The position numbers and the translations under genes were made by a program. From the NCBI RefSeq assembly GCF_018861045.1, contig NZ_JAHKQJ010000007.1, positions 248,001 to 312,000 on the forward strand: DNA of 64,000 bases. The letters are read 5' to 3'. Positions 4,991 through 23,754 of this stretch are shown here, piece after piece; the stretch's first letter is position 1; every line of letters begins with the position of its first letter. This DNA is from Octadecabacter sp. B2R22. GTDB lineage: Bacteria; Pseudomonadota; Alphaproteobacteria; Rhodobacterales; Rhodobacteraceae. The notes beneath the pieces are model-generated. The model worked only from the letters and a program-made list of their open reading frames with translations, was not told the origin of the DNA and ran no database searches.

Positions 4991-5150
4991 AGCAGTGCCT
5001 TTCACGTGTTTGGCCGCTTTATGCACGGGTGAGCAGGGGATGCAACGCACGGTGCGTTTCAGCGCAGACCCGTTGCGACCCTACGTTATCCTTGAACAGA
5101 ATCGCCCAAGCCCTGCAAACTGCGTCCAATCTCAGGGAGGAGATATCAAA

Positions 5151-5537
5151 ATGAAGACTATCGCACTTACACTTGCGGCGACGCTGGGTTTCGCTGGCGC
5201 GGCGTTTGCTGATCCACTGGAAGGCAATTGGCGCACACCTGCGGACGACAATGGCAACTCTGGCATCGTCAACGTCGCACCTTGTGGCGCGGCGCTTTGC
5301 GGCACGCTGACACAAGCATTCGACGGCAATGGGGCCGCTATGCAATCCGCAAATATTGGCCGTCAGATCATCTTTGATACGACACCGAATGGTGGTGGCG
5401 AATATCGTGGGCAAGTTTGGTCCCCTGACCGTGACAAGACCTACAACTCGCGCCTGCAGTTGAACGGCAATACCTTGTCCGTGTCAGGCTGCGTTCTGGG
5501 CATTTGTCGCGATGGCGGCACGTGGACACGCAACTAA
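5151..5537 (+). CDS. Secreted DUF2147 protein
   Basis: 128 residues from the ATG at 5151, preceded by the strong ribosome site GGGAGGAG 7 bases upstream. A signal peptide ends at AFA near residue 21. The mature DUF2147 domain begins DPLEGNWRTP and carries two disulfide-type Cys pairs: CGAALCG near 44-50 and CVLGIC near 117-122. DUF2147 beta-barrels are periplasmic and of unknown function. It stands alone on the plus strand between hisA and hisH and has its own terminator. Confidence 0.9.
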   Translation: MKTIALTLAATLGFAGAAFADPLEGNWRTPADDNGNSGIVNVAPCGAALCGTLTQAFDGNGAAMQSANIGRQIIFDTTPNGGGEYRGQVWSPDRDKTYNSRLQLNGNTLSVSGCVLGICRDGGTWTRN

Positions 5538-19488: not shown

Positions 19489-20121
19489 CTAGGTTGCAGA
19501 CGTAAACAGGTTTGGGAAAACCAATGGGATCAGCGTGGCGATCAGCAGGGCGGCCATGGTCCAATTGAAAGCCCGCAGGCGCGCCGGTGACGTCAAGAAC
19601 CGCCGCATTTGTTGGCCGAGAACTGTCCAAATGGTTATCGAGGGGAAGCTCACCATGAAAAAGGCCAGCGTCACGATCCCAACGGCCAACAGTGATCGCG
19701 TGCCGTCCGCATCCGTCGCAAATCGGGTGATCGCATAAACGGCCATGGACCATGCTTTGGGGTTGACCCATTGGAAGGCGGCGGCCTGCAAAAATGTGAT
19801 TGGACGCCCTCCGGTCTGGGGCGCATCCGGAAGTTTTGGCGCTGCAGTGCCAATCTTATAGGCCAACCACAGCAAATAGGCGACTGAAACGACCTTAAGT
19901 GTTTGATCGACAACCGGAAATGCATCGAAAACTTGCATCAACCCAAGACCAACAAGCGCGATCATTGTTGGGAACCCTATGGTGATCCCGAACATATGCG
20001 GCAGCGTCCGCCGCAACCCGAAATTTGCGCCCGACGCGACCAGCATCGCGTTGTTCGGCCCCGGCGTAACGGTTCCGACGAATGCAAAACTGATGAGGGC
20101 AATAAAGGTTTCAAATGACAT
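19489..20121 (-). CDS. LysE/RhtB-type amino-acid exporter
   Basis: 210 residues with about six membrane segments and the LysE family start: FIALISFAFVGTVTPGPNNAMLVASGANFG (PGPN motif near residues 21-24) and the second signature WVNPKAWSM near 118-126. Members export amino acids or homoserine lactones to control internal pools. It is divergent from an Lrp/AsnC regulator across a 72-base gap, the usual layout in which the regulator senses the amino acid and switches on the exporter. Confidence 0.92.
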   Translation of the reverse strand: MSFETFIALISFAFVGTVTPGPNNAMLVASGANFGLRRTLPHMFGITIGFPTMIALVGLGLMQVFDAFPVVDQTLKVVSVAYLLWLAYKIGTAAPKLPDAPQTGGRPITFLQAAAFQWVNPKAWSMAVYAITRFATDADGTRSLLAVGIVTLAFFMVSFPSITIWTVLGQQMRRFLTSPARLRAFNWTMAALLIATLIPLVFPNLFTSAT

Positions 20122-20146
20122 ACTGCGATTTTATGCGAAGGATGAC

Positions 20147-20159
20147 GCAATGTAATTGC
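20147..20159. promoter_or_regulatory. Candidate Lrp-like operator
   Basis: The palindrome GCAAT-GTA-ATTGC (5-3-5) lies in the middle of the 72-base divergent region between the exporter and its regulator. Lrp/AsnC proteins bind short AT-rich palindromes in such places. Only one clear site is seen. Confidence 0.4.
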
Positions 20160-20193
20160 ATAGTTGTGACGAAACTCCTTAAGTTCACAATAT

Positions 20194-20646
20194 ATGATGG
20201 ATATTGACCCGATAAATGCTCAGATATTGCGCGCGCTTCGCATCGATGGGCGGATCAGCAACTTGGCCTTGGCAGACAAGGTGGGGCTGTCGCCGTCTGC
20301 CTGTCTGCGACGTGTTCATGATCTCGAACGTCGTGGAGTGATTACGGGCTATCGCGCCCAACTGGATCCTGCACAAACTGGCAAAGCCTACGTGGTCTAT
20401 GTGGCTGTTGGCCTTGCTGAGCATTCCAAGGCCGCGCAAGAGGGTTTTGAGGTTGCGATGGCGCGTTTCGATGAGGTGACCGAATGCCACAACATCGCCG
20501 GAGCCTTTGAATATTTGCTACGGGTCGAGGTGGCAGACCTGCCTTCCTACAAGACGTTCCATACGGATAAATTGGGCACAGTTCCCCATGTCCGATCTAT
20601 CACAAGCCATATGGTCATGGGGTCGCCCAAAGACACCCGCGCTTGA
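20194..20646 (+). CDS. Lrp/AsnC family transcriptional regulator
   Basis: 150 residues. N-terminal helix-turn-helix: DPINAQILRALRIDGRISN, then LALADKVGLSPSACLRRVHDLERRGVI (about 22-48). The C-terminal RAM/AsnC ligand-binding domain covers about 65-145 (VAVGLAEHSKAAQ, TECHNIAGAFEYLLRVEVADL). Two ATG codons in tandem open the gene (20194 and 20197), with no strong ribosome site. It probably controls the divergent LysE-type exporter and itself. It converges on the RNA array whose terminator is only 34 bases away. Confidence 0.92.
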   Translation: MMDIDPINAQILRALRIDGRISNLALADKVGLSPSACLRRVHDLERRGVITGYRAQLDPAQTGKAYVVYVAVGLAEHSKAAQEGFEVAMARFDEVTECHNIAGAFEYLLRVEVADLPSYKTFHTDKLGTVPHVRSITSHMVMGSPKDTRA

Positions 20647-20669
20647 CGCTCACAACAGTAAGTTGCCGA

Positions 20670-20711
20670 AAACAAAAAAGCGACGAAACCCTGGGAGGAG
20701 GATTTCATCGC
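20670..20711 (-). terminator. Terminator of the DUF1127/CcsR-like transcript (also hairpin 8)
   Basis: On the minus strand GCGATGAAA (20703-20711) pairs with TTTCGTCGC (20680-20688), with CCTCCTCCC in the loop, and is followed by six T (20674-20679). The last element of the array thus keeps the CCTCCTCCC loop and doubles as the intrinsic terminator of the whole unit. Confidence 0.85.
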
Positions 20712-20726
20712 CTTTGTGGTGGGTCA

Positions 20727-20744
20727 GCCTGTGGGAGGACAGGC
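20727..20744 (-). ncRNA. CcsR-like hairpin 7
   Basis: Perfect 6-bp stem GCCTGT (20727-20732) / ACAGGC (20739-20744) closing a bare CCUCCC loop on the minus strand. Its sequence is closest to hairpin 5 (GTGGGAGGAC core on the plus strand). Confidence 0.8.
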
Positions 20745-20759
20745 GGCCCAGTCTAGCTT

Positions 20760-20811
20760 GATCAAGTGCGGCGATGTCAGGGAGGAGGAAAGACATCGCC
20801 GCGTCTTGATC
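20760..20811 (-). ncRNA. CcsR-like hairpin 6
   Basis: Perfect 11-bp stem GCGGCGATGTC (20768-20778) / GACATCGCCGC (20792-20802) with CCUCCUCCC in the loop, plus an outer 7-bp stem GATCAAG (20760-20766) / CTTGATC (20805-20811). It is the counterpart of hairpin 3. Confidence 0.88.
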
Positions 20812-20814
20812 TAT

Positions 20815-20846
20815 GCGCTTTCCCCGTGGGAGGACGGTTAGAGCGC
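20815..20846 (-). ncRNA. CcsR-like hairpin 5
   Basis: Inner stem CCGT (20824-20827) / ACGG (20834-20837) around CCUCCC, and outer stem GCGCT (20815-20819) / AGCGC (20842-20846). It is the counterpart of hairpin 2. Confidence 0.78.
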
Positions 20847-20853
20847 GATCACA

Positions 20854-20883
20854 GGGCGGCTTCTGGGAGGAAGAAAAGCCCCG
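20854..20883 (-). ncRNA. CcsR-like hairpin 4
   Basis: Stem GGCTT (20858-20862) / AAGCC (20876-20880) with CCUCCC in the loop. The weakest stem of the set; counterpart of hairpin 1. Confidence 0.65.
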
Positions 20884-20900
20884 ATCCTTGTATTCTTTGA

Positions 20901-20951
20901 GATCAAGAACGGCGGTGTCAGGGAGGAGGAAGACACCGCCGTGTCTTGATC
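20901..20951 (-). ncRNA. CcsR-like hairpin 3
   Basis: Perfect 10-bp stem CGGCGGTGTC (20910-20919) / GACACCGCCG (20932-20941) with CCUCCUCCC in the loop, and outer stem GATCAAG (20901-20907) / CTTGATC (20945-20951). Several differences from hairpin 6 are compensatory, so pairing is kept. Confidence 0.88.
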
Positions 20952-20954
20952 TGT

Positions 20955-20992
20955 GCACCCGACCCCTAGGGAGGAGAAGCGGGGTTAGGTGC
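20955..20992 (-). ncRNA. CcsR-like hairpin 2
   Basis: Stems GCACC (20955-20959) / GGTGC (20988-20992) and ACCCC (20962-20966) / GGGGT (20981-20985), with CCUCCC in the loop. It is followed by GCGATCAC as in hairpin 5. Confidence 0.8.
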
Positions 20993-20997
20993 GATCA

Positions 20998-21029
20998 CGA
21001 TGCGTCTAAAGGGAGGTAAAGCCGCATCG
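20998..21029 (-). ncRNA. CcsR-like hairpin 1 (nearest the DUF1127 gene)
   Basis: Perfect 7-bp stem CGATGCG (20998-21004) / CGCATCG (21023-21029) with CCUCCC in a long loop. It begins 13 bases after the DUF1127 stop codon. Confidence 0.78.
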
Positions 21030-21042
21030 ATTCCGGTATTTC

Positions 21043-21279
21043 TTATGCTTCGCCGTAAGCAGCCTCACGAGCGATTGTGTTCAACTGGCTCTTGTGCAGG
21101 CCAAGGTCGTTCAACTCGCGAGTTGTCAAAGACTGAAGCTCAGCCAGTGTGGAGTTATATACGCGGCGCTGTTCCATCTTTGTGCGGATGGACTGGACCA
21201 AGCCAGAAGCGAATGTGCGGGCGTTGGAAACTGCTTGTGCGTTACCAGCGGAAAAATTTGTGTCAGTAGCGTGTGCCAT
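21043..21279 (-). CDS. DUF1127 protein, CcaF1-like
   Basis: 78 residues from the ATG at 21279 (MAHATDTNFS); a longer open frame upstream is not coding-like, and AGAAAAGAGA precedes this ATG. The C-terminal half holds the DUF1127 core YNSTLAELQSLTTRELNDLGL with basic residues upstream (RTKMEQRR). In Rhodobacter sphaeroides the protein encoded in the same place (CcaF1) is an RNA-binding protein that affects CcsR maturation and RNA turnover. Position directly before the CCUCC-loop array makes the same role likely here. A hairpin and a candidate RpoH-type promoter lie upstream. Confidence 0.9.
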   Translation of the reverse strand: MAHATDTNFSAGNAQAVSNARTFASGLVQSIRTKMEQRRVYNSTLAELQSLTTRELNDLGLHKSQLNTIAREAAYGEA

Positions 21280-21301
21280 CTTTAGTCTCTTTTCTAAGTC
21301 G

Positions 21302-21318
21302 GCCCCGAACTCCGGGGC
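21302..21318 (-). promoter_or_regulatory. Leader hairpin of the DUF1127 gene
   Basis: Perfect 6-bp GC stem GCCCCG (21302-21307) / CGGGGC (21313-21318) with a 5-nt loop, 22 nt before the DUF1127 start. It could protect the 5' end or mark a processing site. No T run follows on the minus strand. Confidence 0.4.
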
Positions 21319-21354
21319 TTTCTGCTCTAGCGCCGTATTGCGCCTTCCTGATTG

Positions 21355-21383
21355 AAAATAGGCAATTGCTGCAGGTGCACAAT
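21355..21383 (-). promoter_or_regulatory. Candidate RpoH-type promoter for DUF1127-CcsR
   Basis: Read on the minus strand: ATTGTGC (21377-21383), 13 bases, GCCTATTTT (21355-21363), compared with the heat-shock sigma consensus CTTGAAA-N13-CCCCATNTA. The match is partial (TTG, then C, C, A, T, T). A start near 21348 would give a leader of about 69 nt. Confidence 0.4.
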
Positions 21384-21405
21384 CCCCCCGATGCTCAATG
21401 CCGCT

Positions 21406-21420
21406 ATGCAGAAACTGCAT
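21406..21420. promoter_or_regulatory. Inverted repeat between divergent promoters
   Basis: ATGCAG-AAA-CTGCAT is a perfect 6-3-6 inverted repeat lying between the two candidate promoters. It could be an operator; no regulator is known. Confidence 0.3.
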
Positions 21421-21429
21421 GGTTAATGT

Positions 21430-21458
21430 CTTGAAACTGTTGCGTTTAGCGCCATCTA
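21430..21458 (+). promoter_or_regulatory. RpoH (sigma-32)-type promoter upstream of mrp
   Basis: CTTGAAA (21430-21436, perfect -35), 13 bases, CGCCATCTA (21450-21458) against CCCCATNTA. This is a near-consensus heat-shock promoter pointing to mrp, with a predicted start near 21465 and a leader of about 97 nt. Confidence 0.6.
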
Positions 21459-21561
21459 AGGGATCGGACGTAGGGTCACCCTTAAAATTGCACAAAACTT
21501 CATCGTTGTTGTCCTGACGTCAGGCAGTTTAAGTATCCACTGAACTCAGGCAGGTGAATCC

Positions 21562-22659
21562 ATGACGCAAAATAATGAAACTATTCTGGCGGCCCTTAAG
21601 ACGATTGGTTTGCCTGACGGCGGTGATTTGGTGTCCCGCGACATGATCCGTGCCTTGCAGGTACAGGGCGACTCGGTCCGTTTCGTAATCGAAGCGCCAG
21701 ACGCGGCTACGGCTGGCCGTATGGAACCCATCCGCCAAGCGGCGGAAATGATCGTTTCAAAAATGGATGGCGTGTCTTCTGCATCCGTTGTGCTGACAGC
21801 GCCAACGAACGCTGGTACGTCAAACCAGCCGCCACCACCTGCGGATAAGACGCCGCCGAATCTGACCATTGGTCGTCATCCGACGCCACAAGCCGGACCA
21901 GAAGGTGTGCCAGGTGTGAAACGGATCATTGCCATTGGGTCCGGTAAAGGCGGGGTGGGTAAATCAACTGTCTCCAGCAACCTTGCGGTCGCTTTGGCCA
22001 AGCAGGGGCGCAAAGTTGGCCTGTTGGATGCCGATATCTACGGGCCAAGCCAGCCGCGCATGATGGGGGTCAGCAAACGCCCTGCATCCCCTGACGGCAA
22101 AACCATCATTCCCCTGCAAGCGCACGGCGTCACGATGATGTCCATTGGTCTTATGGTTGACCCCGCAAAGGCCGTTGTCTGGCGTGGTCCTATGTTGATG
22201 GGTGCGTTGCAACAGATGCTGACGCAGGTTGAATGGGGTGAACTGGATGTCCTGTTGGTCGATCTGCCGCCCGGTACCGGTGATGTGCAGTTGACGCTTT
22301 GCCAGAAAACCGCATTGACGGGGGCTATCGTTGTTTCGACACCGCAGGATGTGGCTTTGCTTGATGCGCGTAAGGCGCTCGACATGTTTAACACGCTTAA
22401 AACCCCTGTGCTGGGGCTGATCGAAAACATGTCTACATATATATGTCCCAGCTGCGGCCACGAGGCACATCTATTCGGCCATGGTGGCGTTGCCAAAGAA
22501 GCAGACGCGATTGATGTGCCGTTCCTTGGTTCACTGCCGATTGATCTGGATACACGGTTGGCTGGTGATGCGGGTACACCAATCGCGGCGGGCGACAGCG
22601 ATATGGCGCAGGCCTACGCGGTACTCGCTAAACGTCTGATTGATGGTGGCATGAGTTGA
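21562..22659 (+). CDS. apbC: Mrp/ApbC-type iron-sulfur cluster carrier ATPase
   Basis: 365 residues. An N-terminal MIP18/DUF59 domain (about 1-80) is followed by a deviant Walker A P-loop [11 protein letters not shown] near 131-141, Walker [12 protein letters not shown] near 232-242, and the cluster-binding CPSCG near 298-302. Mrp/ApbC proteins hold and transfer [4Fe-4S] clusters to target enzymes in the cytoplasm. The ribosome site GCAGGTG precedes the ATG. A near-consensus RpoH-type promoter lies upstream, consistent with stress induction of Fe-S repair. Its stop overlaps the next gene. Confidence 0.93.
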
Positions 22660-23132: not shown

Positions 23133-23453
23133 CGGGGAGGGCGGTTTCGCATTCTTGGGAAACCATGGCACTTAACCGCCAATCCGAATCAAGTTTACTA
23201 AATCGGACGGATTCACGCCGTGGAATCGTGTCTAGAGCAAGATTCTTGCCCCTCGTATGGTGGTTTTTGGGGGATTCGGCAAAAATTCTGGGAAAGTCTG
23301 GAACTTTTTTTAACGCGGCTTGAGTGACTACATCTTGTGCCTGCTTGGGTTTCACTAACAGCATTTTGCTCAATCTCGGTGGTTTCGGCACAAAGTCTTG
23401 TGTTCAATGGACCCTGAAAACACCATCTAGTACCATGAAGTCCCAGAAAGTAC
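23133..23453 (+). other. Long non-coding region upstream of the division cluster
   Basis: About 320 bases without a credible gene. Three TTCTGGGA-like segments occur: TTCTTGGGAAACC near 23152, TTCTGGGAAAGTC near 23289, and on the other strand TTTCTGGGACTTC near 23437-23449. MraZ proteins of other bacteria bind clusters of TGGGA-type repeats upstream of mraZ, but the spacing here is irregular. The stretch after GNAT contains no obvious terminator. Confidence 0.4.
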
Positions 23454-23482
23454 TTGGCGGACCATGAATTCCCGTGCATACA
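23454..23482 (+). promoter_or_regulatory. Candidate housekeeping promoter of the mraZ leader
   Basis: TTGGCG (23454-23459), 17 bases, CATACA (23477-23482). The -35 is good and the -10 weak. A start near 23490 would give a terminated leader of about 215 nt, close to the size reported for UpsM in Rhodobacter. Confidence 0.4.
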
Positions 23483-23489
23483 TGATGAC

Positions 23490-23703
23490 AAGAAGACGGG
23501 CAGACAATACGGGGCACCAAACGACCCCACCGACACTAAGAAAACTTAGGTCAGGTTTCATACAGGCACCCAAATTCTTGAACGAAGAGATCCGGCGCGC
23601 GAGCGAGCAGACATCCCCCCAGGTGGCGCGCGCAGCTGGACAGCCCGCAAAGCGGGACGAGGGCGGCGGATTGATCAGTGGCAGCAGATCAATCCGCCGT
23701 TTT
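23490..23703 (+). ncRNA. upsM: UpsM-like leader RNA of the division cluster
   Basis: In Rhodobacter sphaeroides a very abundant small RNA, UpsM, is made when transcription from the mraZ promoter ends at an intrinsic terminator in the long mraZ leader; its level and processing by RNase E depend on the StsR RNA and link division-gene expression to growth phase. The same layout is seen here: a long leader, a 12-bp terminator at 23665-23703, and mraZ 52 bases further on. The 5' end is estimated from the promoter candidate; sequence conservation with UpsM could not be checked. Confidence 0.65.
23665..23703 (+). terminator. Strong intrinsic terminator in the mraZ leader
   Basis: Perfect 12-bp stem GGCGGATTGATC (23665-23676) / GATCAATCCGCC (23687-23698), 10-nt loop, then GTTTT. 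It stands before, not after, the division genes, so it must be read through in part or regulated. Confidence 0.92.
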
Positions 23704-23754
23704 CCGTTCTAAACCAAGTTTTTATCGGGGGACGAGTGAGGGAGCCGCGGGACA

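Follow-up and report, generated by a model that had tools for sequence, protein, structure and literature searches.

The 3′ untranslated region (UTR) of a DUF1127 (CcaF1-type) operon in the 64-kb window (the whole stretch of DNA analysed here) probably yields a multi-hairpin anti-Shine–Dalgarno (aSD) RNA, as ccaF1–CcsR does in R. sphaeroides. CcsR/cuckoo RNAs are recognised by at least two adjacent hairpins carrying an aSD loop motif; here there are eight (Table 1), and we place the array, whose hairpin number is ordinary, in the known DUF1127/CcsR ('cuckoo') class as a new member. The anatomy of the array, covariation in one stem, the near-invariant loop, the DUF1127 linkage, the shared promoter block and the duplication of an A-B-C block were computed directly.

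Table 1 Features of the hairpin array and the region upstream of it (window positions)
Feature	Position	Strand	Description	Evidence or remark
LysR-type box	21396..21419	−	TGCAGTTTCTGCATAGCGGCATTG	TGCA-N6-GCAT (21406-21419) overlaps TGCATAGCGGCATTG (21396-21410)
−35 region	21367..21382	−	TTGTGCACCTGCAGCA	TTGTGCA-N2-YGCAGCA conserved
−10-like element	21356..21362	−	CCTATTT	Conserved position
DUF1127 gene	21043..21279	−	78 aa, CcaF1-like	PF06568, E 9e-10
Hairpin 1 (block A′)	20998..21029	−	CCUCCC loop	Free fold, motif site
Hairpin 2 (block B′)	20955..20992	−	CCUCCC loop	Free fold
Hairpin 3 (block C′)	20900..20952	−	Loop CCUCCUCCC	Free fold; paralog of hairpin 6 with compensating G-C/A-U changes
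Hairpin 4 (block A)	20847..20886	−	CCUCCC loop, first C paired in free fold	Forced and free fold
Hairpin 5 (block B)	20815..20846	−	CCUCCC loop	Free fold
Hairpin 6 (block C)	20760..20811	−	Loop CCUCCUCCC	Free fold; covariation
Hairpin 7 (block D)	20720..20750	−	CCUCCC loop	Forced and free fold
Hairpin 8 (block E)	20676..20715	−	CCUCCUCCC, terminator-like, then T-rich tail	Terminator scan, free fold

Between 20693 and 21016 the minus strand carries CCTCCC eight times; elsewhere in the 64-kb window, with both strands counted, the motif occurs seven times. Because the total of 15 is under the shuffle mean of 26.6, the relevant signal is the clustering of the motif. When the motif is forced to be unpaired, all eight sites fall in hairpin loops (11-20 pairs, -11.4 to -33.4 kcal/mol), with some outer pairs competing with the neighbouring hairpin. 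Free folding of the 368-nt array RNA recovers the identical eight hairpins; hairpin 4 then has one motif base paired, hairpin 8 three. This fold has -165.9 kcal/mol, whereas shuffles give -107 ± 5 and none of 100 is as stable (z -11.85). Dinucleotide shuffles of the array region (n = 500) give a mean of 0.86 motif hairpins and a maximum of 5. Shuffling the spacers around fixed motifs (n = 300) gives up to eight weak hairpins, whose summed energy of -45 ± 13 (lowest -102) compares with -159 observed. Hairpin 8 is the sole terminator-like site found in 20000-22000, a region in which shuffles average 2.0. An earlier note on this DNA had described eight minus-strand stem-loops with CCUCCC or CCUCCUCCC in the loop, the last doubling as the terminator, and on both points motif sites, folds, chance controls and the tail behind hairpin 8 agree with it. 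Its coordinates, 20680..21029, are also correct, and the DUF1127 gene and promoter fall outside them.

The full nine-base motif occupies three of the eight loops (hairpins 3, 6 and 8) and the six-base CCUCCC alone the other five; the full-motif count is likewise 3 in 10 of the 14 other same-genus arrays at the main locus. Published accounts speak of similar loop motifs and lay down no strict rule that each loop must follow (PMC3927594). At the gathering threshold Rfam matched one tRNA elsewhere in the window and left the array unmatched; an Rfam match is no defining feature of CcsR/cuckoo RNAs, and Rfam may contain no model for the family. The sequence TCCTCCTCCC has four copies in the genome, three of them within the array. 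The fourth, outside the window (G000:C7:190299-190308; L001 1440-1580), forms a single hairpin that adjoins a gene judged phasin-like by eye and precedes a PhaR-like gene.

Stems are variable yet kept paired, a CcsR/cuckoo feature. We aligned 22 copies (21 distinct) of the central hairpin; the window genome and its closest relative (G008) contributed two apiece, and the genus, the family and one named locus the others. For this one hairpin type, 11 of the 18 pairs have changed on both sides and 92.7% of cells are paired. None of 500 shuffles reaches any of five covariation measures, and sliding one strand of the alignment reduces pairing to 26-52%. The loop columns are almost invariant. Across the strong arrays of loci L005-L144, 733 hairpins contain 451 distinct loop-closing stems. 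Loss of stem pairing in close relatives had been raised in the earlier note as grounds for dropping the idea; pairing is retained.

Hairpins 1-3 and 4-6 of the array are identical at 102 of 123 positions, with a score of 152 (control mean 82.6, largest of 500 controls 106). The first three hairpins of a five-hairpin relative (L009) match both window blocks (105/122 to hairpins 1-3 and 109/129 to hairpins 4-6), and window hairpins 7-8 match its last two (63/75). The simplest reading is that the eight hairpins are (A′B′C′)(ABC)DE, in which a block of three hairpins would have been duplicated once in tandem. Of 14 further arrays of the genus at comparable loci, seven have five hairpins, three have seven, two have six, one has three and one has eight. 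Eight is large within the genus only.

For the wider family we took the best DUF1127 gene in each of 31 genomes, obtaining 30 loci (G022 gave none). An array of at least two hairpins lies behind this gene in 20 of the 30, with a range of 2-15 and a median of 8, window included; the 20/30 proportion is biased towards arrays because the window is itself in the sample and the profile used (A1) derives from DUF1127 proteins that are linked to arrays. Seven of the ten loci that have no array are weaker matches (E 2e-13 or worse), and several genomes with no array at the best gene carry a triple-motif match elsewhere. The triple-motif pattern matches 120 of 198 family genomes. The view that the hairpin number is unusual or, as in the earlier note, expanded is not borne out, eight being the median of the 20 arrays in the family sample. 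The longest array found has 24 hairpins (L040, in G198). A blind scan of named genomes returned at least 119 stretches, 80 of them taken up as loci. Among the matches listed, and with orders assigned by us, arrays of 3-4 hairpins make up 65 of 66 in Hyphomicrobiales, and arrays of at least five hairpins 15 of 18 in Rhodobacterales; hairpin counts may be too low for arrays touching a locus edge. Five further arrays come from other or unplaced records, and L083 gave none. Nine Hyphomicrobiales loci (L084, L088, L092, L097, L102, L116, L124, L130 and L135) have two separate three-hairpin arrays with roughly 90-230 nt between them, a layout that would suit duplication of entire sRNA genes and not of single hairpins.

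The earlier note placed the array directly behind a DUF1127 gene, and the PF06568 match and a gap of 13 nt between stop codon and hairpin 1 on the same strand confirm this. The encoded protein is 94% identical to that of G008 and 30-53% identical to the other 36 alignment rows, the R. sphaeroides row included; no close relative of it was confirmed in viral contigs. On the opposite flank a convergent Lrp/AsnC-type gene (20194-20646) stops 29 nt before the terminator. Linkage to DUF1127 recurs in family loci L035-L064, which were fetched by the motif pattern alone, without reference to DUF1127: 25 of 29 strong arrays have a DUF1127-like ORF no more than 700 nt upstream (two share one ORF) and four have none. 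Over all the loci examined in this way, 48 arrays have such an ORF, and in 34 of them the first motif lies 13-34 nt past its stop codon. We also examined 38 Hyphomicrobiales arrays that are not preceded by a DUF1127 gene. For CcaF1, RNA binding and promotion of CcsR maturation have been reported (PMC10253847, PMC8625941). A general RNA role for DUF1127 proteins is weakened by the Salmonella protein YjiS, for which RNA binding was reportedly not found, and by Agrobacterium DUF1127 proteins, which act on PhoR through protein contacts (PMC12501420). Further along the window, a gap of about 620 nt (23133-23754) precedes mraZ of the dcw cluster; R. sphaeroides is reported to have the sRNA UpsM within its long dcw leader (PMC8625941).

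A block of about 75 nt before the DUF1127 start is common to genus and family genomes, and contains in order ATGCAnnnnnnTGCAT-RGCRGCATTG, TTGTGCAnnYGCAGCA and a −10-like C[CT][ACT]AT. We compared 80 DUF1127 loci, which are not independent because many are close relatives and which exclude L040 and L079 (upstream DNA missing), with control windows. TGCR-N6-GCAT is present in 74/80 loci and 20/1021 controls, GCATRGCRGCA in 46/80 and 3/1021, TTGTGCAnnYGCAGCA in 55/80 and 0/1021, and the TTGTG to −10 spacing in 30/80 and 0/1021. The six loci from which TGCR-N6-GCAT is absent are L011 (where the stretch is masked), L050, L074, L077, L101 and L141. In the window's own genome the 14-base box has 49 matches with at most one mismatch (2 exact), as against 5 for the reversed pattern; a 25-nt promoter pattern has one exact match, in the window, and four with 2 mismatches.

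The upstream box, which the earlier note does not mention, resembles rhizobial LsrB/VtlR sites. S. meliloti LsrB is reported, from gel shift and mutation, to bind TGCA-N6-GCAT at -72 to -57 in the nfeR1 promoter (PMC10746234); the window has an exact TGCA-N6-GCAT, which would lie at about -70 to -57 if CCTATTT is the −10 element from which the start is placed. The VtlR motif quoted in PMC12595884 reads TGCATGGCTGCATTG when reverse-complemented, and the 15-mer TGCATAGCGGCATTG of the window differs from it by 2 mismatches. Matches to the quoted motif with at most two mismatches occur in 50/80 loci, nearly all Rhodobacterales, and in 1/569 controls. The A. tumefaciens box is given as GCAT-N3-TG-N3-T (PMC7486931), from which the window box has one change (GG for TG). 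Rhodobacterales largely account for both the 15-base match and the TTGTGCA block: among the DUF1127 loci of named Hyphomicrobiales only L091 is within two mismatches of the VtlR motif, and none has the TTGTGCA block. Among the Hyphomicrobiales arrays that have no DUF1127 gene, TGCR-N6-GCAT lies up to 220 nt upstream in 21/38, as against 5/336 control windows, and is missing in 17/38. One other locus (L238, G041:C6:20599-22682) has a run of four DUF1127 genes; the best one carries the LysR-type box upstream, and no hairpin array was found behind it. Because the box occurs there without an array, it may belong to the gene and not to the array.

The R. sphaeroides operon is reportedly transcribed from an RpoHI/RpoHII promoter (PMC10253847, PMC3320616). 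RpoH elements TTG and TAT are given for another gene in a legend of PMC10673084, and the window promoter has TTG and TAT at conserved places. Control of the window operon by a heat-shock sigma factor is plausible on this basis; CCTATTT would suit a housekeeping promoter aided by a LysR activator as well.

LsrB has been called unique to the Rhizobiales, where it is in an operon with trxB (PMC11975290 section 31). Using as query the LysR-type protein that adjoins trxB in an Agrobacterium pusense genome, we found one outstanding LsrB-like protein in each of eight chosen Rhodobacteraceae genomes (39-41% identity, E 6e-68 to 9e-75), the next-best match in each genome being at 2e-35 to 1e-37. The window genome's protein (C7:842738-843598; LysR by Pfam; 39% identity, E 8e-70) is a reciprocal best match in two Rhizobiales genomes. 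Its DNA-binding part is identical at 48/66 positions, with LHLSQSAVSRQ for LHLSQSAISRQ, and the remainder at 64/218. The gene is not beside trxB in the window genome or in G085, which we infer below to be R. sphaeroides and whose counterpart lies at C4:1631577-1632437. The comparison makes it likely that the protein is an LsrB ortholog and recognises similar DNA. In Brucella, three DUF1127 genes and AbcR2 are reportedly under VtlR control (PMC12595884); literature searches, at the level of their result lists, showed no paper linking LsrB/VtlR to DUF1127 genes of Rhodobacterales. We lean cautiously towards the view that the Rhodobacterales DUF1127–aSD operons, ccaF1–CcsR included, belong to an LsrB/VtlR-type regulon, such that regulator, DUF1127 protein and aSD RNAs would constitute one ancient alphaproteobacterial module for stress and nutrients. 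Within it the number of hairpins, most often 3-4 in Hyphomicrobiales and as many as 24 in Rhodobacterales, would be a dosage setting free to evolve.

Candidate targets point in the same functional direction as published ones. In the window's own genome GGGAGGA-N3-9-ATG occurs 41 times, as against 2 for the reversed pattern. We fetched 30 of the 41 sites, giving 26 ORFs of at least 100 aa, and as controls 30 of 84 AAGGAGA sites, from contigs C1 and C3 only, giving 22 ORFs. Periplasmic solute-binding proteins, by Pfam, account for 9/26 of the GGGAGGA ORFs and 0/22 of the AAGGAGA ORFs (Fisher p 0.002), at unequal cut-offs of 1e-5 for the first set and a stricter 1e-8 for the controls; one of the nine (L286) rests on a partial Pfam match. 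Within C1 and C3 only, the counts are 3/10 and 0/22 (about p 0.02). The reported targets of rhizobial aSD RNAs are solute-binding proteins of ABC transporters (PMC10746234, PMC8844928). Any CCUCC loop has many possible partners, because strong Shine–Dalgarno sites precede many genes. Inside the window, GGGAGGA stands directly before a DUF2147 gene (5135-5153; L288), a possible target of the array. Where the earlier note had the loops either titrating a protein or pairing with GGAGG leaders, pairing with leaders is the better supported; nothing was found in favour of protein titration.

Together these data suggest the following pathway. A single transcript would start near 21349, end past hairpin 8 and be cut between hairpins into short RNAs, as by RNase E in R. 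sphaeroides, where CcsR1-4 are reported to derive from the ccaF1 3′ UTR (PMC8625941). Their CCUCC(UCC)C loops would base-pair at ribosome-binding sites of the form GGGAGG(A) and keep many mRNAs from being translated; among these, mRNAs for periplasmic solute-binding proteins may be enriched. The DUF1127 protein may aid maturation or turnover, and hairpin number probably sets dosage, not new function. Transcription would probably depend both on the LysR regulator, which is LsrB/VtlR-like, and on a sigma factor of either heat-shock or housekeeping type. This explanation is supported by the positive control G085, in which gene, array and promoter block all recur, and weakened by the five loops that have no nine-base motif and by the ten of 30 DUF1127 loci that have no array.

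Other readings of the array must be set against these observations. It is unlikely that the loops chiefly titrate an RNA-binding protein such as the DUF1127 protein, in the manner of CsrB/RsmZ, with mRNA pairing secondary. Many identical loops on one transcript do resemble a sponge, and CcaF1 reportedly binds RNA and takes part in CcsR maturation (PMC10253847); against this, the loop is exactly anti-Shine–Dalgarno, the related NfeR1, from a sister family, reportedly uses its three loops to silence mRNAs at their ribosome-binding sites, an activity that loop mutants lose (PMC10746234), and the 38 Hyphomicrobiales arrays do without a DUF1127 gene in front. The last point also bears on a somewhat more doubtful reading, in which the hairpins would chiefly protect or end the DUF1127 mRNA as a structured 3′ UTR and have no action in trans. 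The position directly behind the gene and the terminator-like last hairpin fit such a role, but drifting stems around a constant loop would be needless in a mere stabiliser.

That the array soaks up other RNAs or serves as a ribosomal-subunit decoy, and does not silence chosen mRNAs, would suit transcripts with up to 24 loops, and an RNA sponge has been published for the alphaproteobacterium Caulobacter (PMC12559287), but CcsR is reported to act on flhR mRNA (PMC8307010), and we regard this reading as improbable. Hardest of all to credit is that the stretch is protein-coding or a dispersed DNA repeat. There is an open frame of 102 aa on the minus strand (20650-20958), but in the closest relative (L006, in G008), whose array likewise has eight hairpins, one-base indels shift this long reading frame and a stop appears, and TCCTCCTCCC is confined to the four genomic copies noted above; both possibilities were rejected. 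An aSD RNA derived from the DUF1127 operon remains our preferred reading.

A described class gains one member with this array, and a loop count is put right: it is the model species that has more. The array is in itself ordinary, and the part most worth attention is the LsrB-type box together with its regulator. If control by an LsrB-like regulator in Rhodobacterales is true, the literature on CcsR/CcaF1 under RpoH and that on NfeR1/AbcR/DUF1127 under LsrB/VtlR would describe one conserved circuit. The broad spread of hairpin number among related genomes offers a natural experiment on sRNA dosage.

The closest known system is the ccaF1–CcsR1-4 operon of R. sphaeroides (RSP_6037, RSs0680a-d). 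The genome G085 used for comparison has a PufL identical over 281 residues to that of R. sphaeroides. Its own PufL copy is identical to the chain of 1aig and other reaction-centre entries, which we take to be from R. sphaeroides, and we infer that G085 is this species. G085 encodes a 71-aa DUF1127 protein, the length given for CcaF1 (PMC10253847), and behind the gene it has 14 full-CCTCCTCCC hairpins, of which ten form five nearly identical units of two, besides four weak CCTCCC sites. The proposal that the window has twice as many loops as R. sphaeroides fails because CcsR1-4 counts RNAs, not loops: RS0680a comprises two stem-loops with the motif in each (PMC3927594 section 2.7), and like for like the window, with eight to the 14 of G085, has fewer. 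That the window holds the same kind of system stands, on the homologous DUF1127 gene, promoter block, loop motif and array position; the doubling does not. Both operons have a DUF1127 gene followed by aSD hairpins, the same promoter block and a final hairpin close to the transcript end, and differ in that G085 has 14 full-motif hairpins with two-hairpin units whereas the window has eight, 3 of them full-motif, with a duplicated three-hairpin block.

The cuckoo RNA family, or CIN1 (Reinkensmeier and Giegerich 2015, via PMC10253847; SmelA075/SmelA099 in PMC3927594), is described as sharing tandem CCUCCUCCC-loop hairpins, drifting stems and short DUF1127 proteins, but two, three and four hairpins are the numbers mentioned in PMC3927594, compared with eight in the window, five of which have the shortened motif. 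NfeR1 (alpha-r14) of Sinorhizobium meliloti is reported to have aSD loops and a TGCA-N6-GCAT box nearly equally far from the start; it differs in being a stand-alone RNA of three hairpins with a sigma-70 promoter, unlinked to DUF1127 in that species. The LsrB/VtlR regulon of Rhizobiales (abcR1, abcR2, vrsA, nfeR1 and DUF1127 genes) is set apart from the window, which has a predicted site, belongs to the family of R. sphaeroides and has its regulator away from trxB, but is matched by a box that resembles the quoted sites and by a reciprocal-best regulator in the window genome.
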